NCBI GenBank assembly: GCA_028822585.1
Contig: JAPKDL010000014.1
Coordinates: forward strand, 1-45,980
DNA: 45,980 bases
From: Alphaproteobacteria bacterium
GTDB taxonomy: Bacteria > Pseudomonadota > Alphaproteobacteria > UBA8366 > GCA-2717185
Reading direction: 5' to 3'
The notes below the pieces were generated by a model. That model was not told where the DNA came from. It saw nothing but the letters and a program-made list of their open reading frames with translations, and ran no database searches. Positions 19,099-27,491 of the stretch are shown here, piece by piece. The first letter of the stretch is position 1. Each line of letters starts with the position of its first letter. The position numbers were made by a program, and so were the translations under genes.

Positions 19099-19123
19099 GC
19101 GATAATCCTTTTACCGGTTAAGC

Positions 19124-19158
19124 CTCCGCAAGCGACAGTCGTAATTACGACACCGGAG
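19124..19158 (-). promoter_or_regulatory. Hairpin in the rpsB leader, possible S2 autoregulatory site
   Basis: The leader RNA can fold as CTCCG...CGGAG enclosing a perfect palindrome GTCGTAATTACGAC (19138-19151), a 5-bp stem with a 4-base loop. It begins about 26 bases before the rpsB start. S2 is known to repress its own mRNA in E. coli through the leader. That this hairpin plays that role here is inference. Confidence 0.35.
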
Positions 19159-19209
19159 CAGCCGACGCTGTCATGCGCCAGATACAAGCCTGCGTGTGAA
19201 GTAGCGGCG

Positions 19210-24773: not shown

Positions 24774-26102
24774 TCAGGCTTGCCCCGCGGACAAGCGACT
24801 CAACGCCTCATCTATCGATATTTCGTCGCGTTCTTCTGTTCTGCGCGATTTCAACTCGACAACGCCATTTTTCAACCCGCGGGGCCCCACGATCAATTGC
24901 CAGGGCAGGCCAATTAAATCCATCCTCGCAAACTTAGCACCCGCCCGGTCATCGCGATCATCGTACAGCGTTTCCACGCCGGCTTTCTCCAACTTTGCGT
25001 AGATTTCTTCACACGCCGCCTCGCAAGCTACATCACCGGCCCGAAGGTTAATCAAGCCCACCTTGAATGGCGCCACGGAGTCGGGCCAAATAATGCCTTT
25101 GTCATCGTGACTGGCTTCGATAATGCCCCCGACCAATCGTGATACACCAATGCCATAAGACCCCATTTGAACGGCCACGTCGCCACCTTCGGGGGTTGAA
25201 ACGGATGCGCCCAATGGCTTGGAGTATTTGTCACCGAAAAAGAAGATATGCCCCACTTCGATACCGCGCGCACTCACGCGTTTATCTGCCGGCACTTCTG
25301 ATTCAAAACGCGCAGGATCATGCTGTTCATCGGTCGCAGCGTAGATACTTGTCCAGGAGTCAACGACCGGCTGCAAATCAGACTCTTCGTCGAATTCCTC
25401 CGCAAGCACATCCCGGTTGAGGAAATCCTGATGACAAAATACTTCACTTTCACCGGTATCAGCCAAAATAATAAATTCATGGCTTAAATCTCCGCCGATA
25501 GGTCCAGTATCCGCCTGCATAGGGATGGCCTTCAAACCCAGGCGCGCATAGGTGCGAAGATAAGCCACAAACATCTTGTTATACGCCTTGCGACCCTGTT
25601 CTGCGTCAATATCAAAGGAATAAGCGTCCTTCATTAAAAATTCACGCCCCCGCATAACGCCAAATCGAGGGCGCACCTCATCCCGAAATTTCCACTGGAT
25701 ATGATACAAATTGAGCGGCAAATCTTTGTAACTTCGGACCGACCCGCTAAATATCTCCGTTATCTGTTCTTCGTTTGTCGGTCCGTACAGCATTTCCCGA
25801 TCATGGCGATCCGTGATTCGTAGCATTTCCTTACCGTAACCATCGTACCGCGCGCTTTGACGCCATAAATCTGCCGATTGAATTGTTGGCATCAGAACTT
25901 CCTGTGCACCTGTCGCATTTTGTTCCTCGCGAACAATTTGTTCGATTTTTTTCATCACACGAAGCCCTAGCGGCAGCCAAGAATAAATTCCGGCGCTCGC
26001 CTGACGCACCATGCCCGCGCGAAGCATCAAACGATGCGACGCAATTTGCGCTTCCGATGGCGTTTCCTTCAATGTGGGCAGAAAATATTGAGACAGGCGC
26101 AT
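24774..26102 (-). CDS. proS: Prolyl-tRNA synthetase (short alphaproteobacterial type)
   Basis: Class II synthetase of 442 residues that charges tRNA-Pro. At this length it lacks the roughly 180-residue editing insertion found in the E. coli enzyme, as is usual for the alphaproteobacterial and mitochondrial form. Seen are the N-terminal [20 protein letters not shown] motif 1 region, motif 2 with [21 protein letters not shown] near 130-155, and motif 3 with GIGVSRL near 325. A C-terminal anticodon-binding domain carries [24 protein letters not shown] lies just before the ATG. It heads the lolC-lolD(-dnaE) group. Confidence 0.96.
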
Positions 26103-26185: not shown

Positions 26186-26497
26186 TTAATTACGCAACAG
26201 ATCGCGGCATTTTTTAACGAAATCGCGGCAAGCAACAGCTTGCAAAGGTCGCCCCCTATAGGTCACCGCCATCGTTTTCAAATTAAAGATAATCTGTCCC
26301 AAGTTTAATTGTGTTTTGCCAAAACGCGTAGCTGACCTCCCTTTCAAGGGATTAATCGAAATTTGAAATTCATAGATTTTCGGCAGCATCGCCGTCAAGC
26401 CGCCATTGCTAGGCAGGTTAGCCAACGCCGCGGGTCGGCCGCGGAGCTCTACACCAGTTGTAAACGCCACACCTTTAACTGGCTTATGCTTTGCCAA
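26186..26497 (-). CDS. Unclassified small protein, possibly a gene remnant
   Basis: I do not recognise this 103-residue frame. It is basic, has no signal peptide or membrane segment, and ends in a region that looks like real protein: NLGQIIFNLKTMAVTYRGRPL, then ACRDFVKKCRDLL with two cysteines. The start would be TTG, with AAGGAG eleven bases before it. The open frame continues upstream of that codon for about 100 bases without a start, so it could equally be the tail of a once longer gene. It lies 83 bases upstream of proS, same strand, in the only patch that breaks the conserved gene order. Confidence 0.35.
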   Translation of the reverse strand: MAKHKPVKGVAFTTGVELRGRPAALANLPSNGGLTAMLPKIYEFQISINPLKGRSATRFGKTQLNLGQIIFNLKTMAVTYRGRPLQAVACRDFVKKCRDLLRN

Positions 26498-26729
26498 TTT
26501 TTGCAGGACTCCTTGGTCACCGCAATGGTAAAACCTGCTGCGGCCCCGGAAAAGGCTTATACAAGAACCCCTACAGAGATCAAAAATCCAGATAACTTAT
26601 ACCTGCCTAAAATTTTAAATTATTAGAAGACATTATATATTTTGACCTTCTATTTAGGACTAAATAAATCCGTCGCATGGGTATTAAACCATAAAATTTA
26701 TAAATATTTCTAAGTTTGTTCGAAATATG

Positions 26730-26759
26730 ATGACTCGAAGAGAAAACGTTTTCTATAAT
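26730..26759 (+). promoter_or_regulatory. Candidate plus-strand promoter
   Basis: Perfect TATAAT at 26754-26759 with ATGACT (26730-26735) 18 bases upstream as a fair -35. It points toward the hairpin region and against tag. The -10 is strong; the -35 matches four of six bases. Confidence 0.4.
26741..26754. promoter_or_regulatory. 14-bp palindrome resembling a LacI-family operator
   Basis: AGAAAACGTTTTCT is a perfect palindrome with the central CG flanked by A- and T-runs typical of LacI/GalR-family operators. It fills the spacer of the candidate promoter and touches its -10. No LacI-type regulator is encoded in the window, so the binding protein is unknown. Confidence 0.45.
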
Positions 26760-26766
26760 TCCGCAC

Positions 26767-26845
26767 AACAATGAAGAAGGCTGGGGTCAAGTCAAAAGCC
26801 GCCTAGGGAGGCGACGCCAACGTTTGTTTTTAACAAACCGGCACA
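26767..26845 (+). ncRNA. Candidate structured small transcript
   Basis: Downstream of the promoter-like element three hairpins follow each other: GGCT/AGCC (26779-26782 with 26797-26800), CGCCT/AGGCG with a 4-base loop (26800-26813), and GTTTGTT/AACAAAC with a 3-base loop (26822-26838), the last extended by GCC/GGC. No U-run follows the last stem, so a terminator is not evident. I cannot assign it to a known RNA family. Confidence 0.25.
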
Positions 26846-26927
26846 GAAACTGAAAGAAATCTAGCGAGAGTGAAAAATAAATGCGGCAAGGGATTCGTCT
26901 CTTGCTTTTTTGTCTGCAAGACCAATA

Positions 26928-27491
26928 TCAGTCAACAGACTCCCAAAACTCAATCCCGACGCGCGCCCATGGCGGTTCCAACACCTTAATTTTTTGGATG
27001 ACAGGACAACCCTTGTCATGGGCACCAGGTAAATATCCCGTACTCATCAAGAATTCACCGGTAATTTCACTGCCAGTAAATAAAAACGTTTGTTTGAACA
27101 ATCTAACCCAATCGGGCTTCATTAAAGGATGGTGCGTTTCCAACCAAGCTTTAAAACCGCCGCCCGAATCACGTAACGTCTGAATTCGTTTTGCATTTTC
27201 GACAGCGGCGTTAACTTTTAGTTTATTCCGGATTATGCCAGCGTCACCGAGCAAACGCGCCCGGTCATCAGGTCCGTACGCCGCCACTGTATCAACGTCA
27301 AAGCCATCATAAGCCTTGAAGAAAGCCTCACGCTTTTTCAACACGGTCAACCAGGACAACCCCGCCTGGTTTATCTCCAAGATAAGCCGTTCGAATAAAA
27401 TATGTTCGTCGGATACCGGAAACCCATATTCCGTTCCGTGATAAGGACCATGCCAATCGTGGTTTGGCGAGCTCTCGCAATACGAAGTCAT
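26928..27491 (-). CDS. tag: DNA-3-methyladenine glycosylase I
   Basis: Base-excision repair enzyme that removes 3-methyladenine from alkylated DNA. The 187-residue protein matches the Tag family from the start: WHGPYHGTEYGFPVSDE near residues 13-29, LILEINQAGLSWLTVLKKRE near 36-55 (including the catalytic-site Glu), AGIIRNKLKV near 83-92, and FTGSEITGEFLMSTGYLPGAH with the C-terminal His and Cys of the zinc site (HDKGC). It lies 18 bases after the DUF1467 gene, on the same strand, between two blocks whose junction usually lacks it. It is probably read through from the upstream operon. Confidence 0.94.
   Translation of the reverse strand: MTSYCESSPNHDWHGPYHGTEYGFPVSDEHILFERLILEINQAGLSWLTVLKKREAFFKAYDGFDVDTVAAYGPDDRARLLGDAGIIRNKLKVNAAVENAKRIQTLRDSGGGFKAWLETHHPLMKPDWVRLFKQTFLFTGSEITGEFLMSTGYLPGAHDKGCPVIQKIKVLEPPWARVGIEFWESVD

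Follow-up and report, generated by a model that had tools for sequence, protein, structure and literature searches.

We report that positions 26766–26911 of the plus strand of the window (i.e., the whole 45,980-nt stretch of alphaproteobacterial DNA analysed here) are likely to form a stand-alone, intergenic gene for a structured small RNA of approximately 146 nt. The assignment comes from sequence comparison: a promoter and an intrinsic terminator flank a stretch without a conserved gene, and both are kept in a sister species of the same genus. A preliminary description of the locus, made from the window alone, had suggested either a regulated small RNA or a control region left stranded by the loss of its gene. 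The small RNA of the first suggestion is borne out by conservation, synteny, strand-specific structure and the terminator, while its LacI-type regulation is not. The second suggestion is not supported, given the conservation of RNA body and terminator as a unit behind the promoter and a sister genome that has no gene at this place.

Locus, promoter and predicted fold

The window is part of contig C135 in a genome of 3.8 Mb (265 contigs, 95.7% complete; G000). The candidate RNA sits in an intergenic stretch of 328 nt, with minus-strand genes on both sides. On the left are a gene at 24774–26102, presumably proS judging by its domain match, and, between it and the intergenic stretch, a short gene running from 26186 to about 26590. 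On the right is tag (26928–27491, Pfam Adenine_glyco), beyond which the gene order continues with a DUF1467 gene and then a glyoxalase-type gene. As had been described, the plus-strand unit runs against tag, on which it converges without overlap (i.e., there is a gap of 16 nt between the predicted RNA 3′ end and the tag stop codon).

The short gene at 26186–26590 is homologous to that of an exported, conserved protein of 140 aa, which was present in 10 of the 11 family genomes searched and has no match in Pfam and NCBIfam. In the copy found here the signal-peptide region is interrupted by an in-frame stop near 26557–26559 and, next to five consecutive A's, by a frameshift near 26500; this disrupted copy is either a pseudogene or an assembly error.

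The promoter is of the sigma-70 type (26730–26759, plus strand) and consists of ATGACT at 26730–26735, an 18-nt spacer and a perfect TATAAT at 26754–26759, matching the consensus at 10 of 12 positions. Transcription would start at this housekeeping-type promoter and end at the intrinsic terminator; accordingly placed RNA ends are 26766 (from the −10 box, ±2 nt) and 26911 (from the terminator). Immediately upstream, an AT-rich stretch at 26661–26729 (GGGTATTAAACCATAAA...) is identical to the sister sequence at 46 of 69 positions, compared with 24 of 61 in the intergenic sequence further upstream (26600–26660), and is possibly a UP element or an activator site.

Folding the RNA of each species alone gave the same four elements, namely a closing helix P1, two hairpins P2 and P3 enclosed by it, and the terminator. 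In P1 (26780–26865), positions 26780–26785 and 26787–26788 pair with 26860–26865 and 26856–26857, respectively. P2 occupies 26800–26813 and has an AGGG loop, and P3 occupies 26816–26842; P2 is the minimum-free-energy prediction in each species alone and a hairpin is also predicted at P3 in each, the one in the sister being 8 nt shorter and shifted in register. An AU-rich stretch and the terminator follow at 26873–26911, the terminator hairpin itself (26885–26906) being trailed by 6 T's here and 8 in the sister. The three successive hairpins that had been noticed from the sequence alone are thus P2, P3 and the terminator. The transcript was also rightly described as holding no normal ORF, only an 11-codon frame (ATG to TAG, 26771–26806) that is near-leaderless and reads MKKAGVKSKAA (MKKAGIKSKVV in the sister).

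Conservation in the sister species

Taken one at a time, these features are not exceptional. The scan found 3 promoter-like sites against 2.5 in shuffled sequence and 3 terminator-like sites against 2.4, and the single-sequence fold of the RNA is of ordinary stability compared with shuffles (z = −0.76). With no single feature rising above chance, the case depends on comparing the locus with that of the sister species (G001, a Rhodospirillaceae MAG of the same genus), where blastn detected a homologue on contig C395 (E = 9e-29). Promoter, RNA body and terminator are retained there together at the syntenic place, with tag, the RNA on the opposite strand, and the gene for the 140-aa exported protein. 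The two species have identical TATAAT boxes, the same TGAC core in the −35 element and the same spacing between the two. Identity amounts to 27/36 in the promoter, 59/77 in the 5′ part of the RNA and 24/28 in the terminator; conservation is poor in the linker preceding the terminator (21/34), and tag itself is 73% identical (409/564).

We then assessed whether the structure is conserved beyond what the alignment would yield by chance, permuting alignment columns within conservation and gap classes. The plus-strand consensus fold reached −26.65 kcal/mol against −11.2 ± 3.0 for shuffled alignments (z = −5.1; 0 of 300 shuffles reached the observed value), and the minus-strand fold was no better than shuffles (z = +0.3). 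With the terminator removed, the values were z = −2.8 (2/300) for the plus strand and z = +2.0 for the minus strand, and a repeat run gave z = −4.9 (0/200) for the RNA and −2.7 for its body. Among 14 strand-wise control stretches, one matched the body (27085–27234, plus strand, within tag; z = −2.87, 1/200) and the remaining 13 fell between −1.9 and +1.2. The strong z-score therefore owes much to the terminator, as the body-only value of −2.7 is equalled by one of the 14 control stretches, and the body signal alone is suggestive rather than decisive. The asymmetry between strands follows from several changes that leave G–U wobbles when read on the plus strand but would give mismatches on the minus strand.

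All 25 pairs of the two-sequence consensus are kept in both species, six of them with changes; only one pair is compensatory, a thin covariation signal that reflects the use of two sequences. This compensatory pair lies in the terminator. In P1, 8 of 8 pairs are kept, two of them through one-sided changes that preserve a standard or G–U pair, and P2, whose AGGG loop is unchanged, is kept by wobble on the plus strand only. Slid by 1–3 columns, the consensus pairs left 34–52% of cells paired. A letter-shuffle control was uninformative, with 244 of 500 shuffles reaching the observed value.

The promoter palindrome and alternative explanations

The perfect 14-nt palindrome that had drawn attention to the locus, AGAAAACGTTTTCT, does lie in the promoter spacer as described (26741–26754), its last T being the first T of TATAAT (26754). 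It had been read as a LacI-type element, such that a LacI-type repressor would bind across the −10 box and block transcription until an inducer frees it. The perfect symmetry with a central CG, the position where a repressor would block and the fact that this is the only exact copy in the genome are all in keeping with such regulation. However, the 95.7%-complete genome has no match to the LacI family (PF00356) at E ≤ 0.01, in a search whose control was positive in 10 of 14 named genomes, Caulobacter included. The sister counterpart, GGAAAATGTTATCT, differs at 3 of 14 bases and has lost the symmetry. Looking for the palindrome elsewhere in the genome, as had been recommended, gave no enrichment either: 10 near-copies per strand were counted when up to 2 mismatches were allowed, compared with 12 for the reversed pattern. 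Perfect 14-nt palindromes are also near expectation in the window (6 observed, 3.9 ± 2.1 expected), and the probability of at least one in the 328-nt intergenic stretch is 0.041. A LacI operator was rejected on these grounds; LacI-type regulation is largely refuted and, in our estimate, extremely improbable. The palindrome is probably a coincidence, and the small-RNA reading does not need it. Absence of conservation in sister species, named beforehand as evidence against the original proposal, was thus found for the palindrome and not for the RNA. Another of the window's six palindromes (19138–19151) falls inside a match to the Rfam rpsB sRNA family (RF01815, 42.8 bits; 19101–19198, minus strand), located just downstream of a dnaE-like ORF.

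The remaining alternatives concern the RNA itself. One explanation is that the transcript is a leaderless mini-mRNA, starting at the AUG and encoding an 11-residue basic peptide, MKKAG(V/I)KSK(A/V)(A/V), with the rest serving as a stable 3′ UTR. The AUG lies 11 nt after TATAAT and 3–5 nt from the transcript 5′ end, and the sister keeps both frame and stop with conservative replacements. Against this, the five base changes in the ORF fall at codon positions 1, 2, 2, 3 and 3, and so show no third-position bias; there is no ribosome-binding site, the stop codon overlaps hairpin P2, and the conserved RNA lies mostly outside the frame. Two indels relative to the sister (8 nt and 4 nt) further exclude a conserved frame beyond about 26825, i.e., past the 11-codon ORF. 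The frame is probably not translated, and we regard the mini-mRNA as quite unlikely.

Alternatively, there may be no RNA gene of its own, only the terminator region of tag together with a promoter that fires without function. The terminator hairpin lies roughly 21 nt beyond the stop codon of tag, and the chance-level single features would fit; yet only on the plus strand is this hairpin followed by the T-run, the minus-strand consensus fold does not exceed shuffles, and a mere terminator would not require the body between it and the promoter to be conserved. We consider this unlikely. A cis-acting leader, riboswitch or antisense regulator of tag would be suggested by the head-to-head arrangement of the RNA with the end of that gene, but no plus-strand gene follows downstream, the next conserved gene being tag on the other strand, and Rfam offers no match. 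Moreover, since the RNA ends 16 nt before the tag stop codon, antisense overlap would require readthrough, and such a regulator seems highly improbable.

Distribution, possible targets and known systems

To place the predicted small RNA among known families and related genomes, we combined Rfam, blastn and covariance-model searches. Searching 26600–26940 against Rfam gave no match at the gathering cut-off. A known RNA family was rejected both at gathering and at E ≤ 5, the best sub-threshold match being to Yfr21 on the opposite strand, with 16.6 bits (cut-off 100; E = 2.8). Across 59 genomes, blastn matches were significant in the source and sister genomes only; the next had E = 0.042, and 29 of the 59 genomes showed some match at E ≤ 1. 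The covariance model (CM R1) scored 177.6 bits in the source genome and 174.9 bits in the sister, both high by construction, and found no second copy in the source genome at E ≤ 0.05. In 43 genomes of the order it recovered the source, the sister and one terminator-driven match (G035, E = 0.008). In a sample of 289 genomes of the class (strict filters, no more than 10 scored candidates in each genome), the model recovered the source and another terminator-driven match (G072, E = 7e-4). No RNA match was found in phages, plasmids and viral contigs.

The 140-aa gene is also present in the family's two other genera, and in two genomes among them (G006 and G009) the close tag homologue lies nearby. 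An unfiltered model search of 11 loci detected no homologue at the nine around tag or the 140-aa gene in these genera (best E = 3). The third member of the source genus (G002) is uninformative, being 62% complete and lacking tag too. An exact-pattern search of contigs returned the sister (JABJJH010000569.1, Rhodospirillaceae MAG, isolate SI074_bin63) and one Lentisphaerae contig, the latter taken as a chance match. The RNA, found in two genomes of one genus, is probably lineage-restricted. In G009 (C424, 5070–6547), which represents a different genus of the same family, an open frame of 317 codons with a start resembling a signal peptide lies between tag and the 140-aa gene, occupying the position where the candidate RNA sits in the source genus.

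How such an RNA might act is suggested by three features: the genome encodes hfq (G000:C40; PF17209, 111 bits), the 3′ end has an Hfq-type layout, and the most conserved unpaired parts of the RNA are its 5′ end and a CAARUCAAAAG linker. From these we infer a trans-acting sRNA, in which the AU-rich stretch and the U-tail would be bound by Hfq. Pairing with target mRNAs would fall to the CAARUCAAAAG linker or to the unpaired 5′ end (ACAAYAAUGAAGAAGG), which is almost invariant. We put the odds of action in trans through Hfq at roughly even.

To look for targets, both genomes were screened for sequences complementary to the 5′ end and to the linker. The 5′-end complement gave 43 and 40 sites, all of which were inspected, with 5 pairs common to both species. 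The reversed control gave 15 and 13 sites with 1 shared pair, and the 5′-end set showed no clear excess over it. A nearby start codon with a Shine-Dalgarno-like stretch was seen at 4 of 45 sites (a count in which two sites from overlapping loci appear twice) and at 9 of 40, compared with 0 of 15 and 1 of 13 in the control. The linker complement gave 8 and 5 sites, compared for orthology through their loci only.

Only one site was both shared and near a start codon. It lies in dctM (gene names from Pfam), at codons 8–12 (CCUUCCUCAUUGUUG; loci L072 and L075), a position common to both species, and departs from the seed complement by a single mismatch. That it is shared carries little weight as evidence, because the two species are 95% identical over this stretch. 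The dctPQM operon, which encodes a TRAP transporter, has this 95% DNA identity at its dctQ/dctM junction (positions 1380–1640 of both L072 and L075), compared with 73% for tag. A genus-specific Hfq sRNA whose invariant 5′ end represses the TRAP-type transporter operon by pairing with dctM codons 8–12 would link uptake control to an RNA without relatives found outside the genus, and we judge this specific proposal very unlikely.

The candidate small-RNA gene is probably functional and ordinary in kind, its novelty being that it was previously unnamed. For the uncultured Rhodospirillaceae-like lineage it would mean one more probable small-RNA gene, leaving the general picture of bacterial RNA regulation unchanged. 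As a rule to be drawn from this locus, the perfect promoter palindrome proved the least trustworthy element of what had been noticed, and conservation was found in the neighbouring RNA that had looked unexplained.

Several known systems offer a comparison. Some alphaproteobacterial sRNA families carry anti-Shine-Dalgarno loops, which the candidate lacks on its plus strand. 6S RNA (RF00013) is likewise single-copy and structured with a closing helix, but the candidate fails the RF00013 model and 6S RNA was ruled out, the genome's sole match to that model lying elsewhere (G000:C120, 9142–9301; 54.7 bits, over the cut-off). Trans-encoded sRNAs of the same bacterial class have been surveyed in Rhizobiales (PMC3927594, PMC2873474); they share with the candidate the bacterial class and a trans-encoded arrangement, and the candidate has no sequence or structure match to any Rfam family. 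At the level of literature listings, we found no small-RNA work on this uncultured Rhodospirillaceae-like lineage. The closest likeness in layout is to the Hfq-associated, intergenic, trans-acting sRNAs, which are a kind rather than one family. The candidate differs from them in being known here from the sequence of two genomes alone, and shares with them its own promoter, an intergenic location, a length of about 100–200 nt, several hairpins, an AU-rich stretch before a U-tailed terminator, a conserved unpaired 5′ end and the presence of hfq in the genome.
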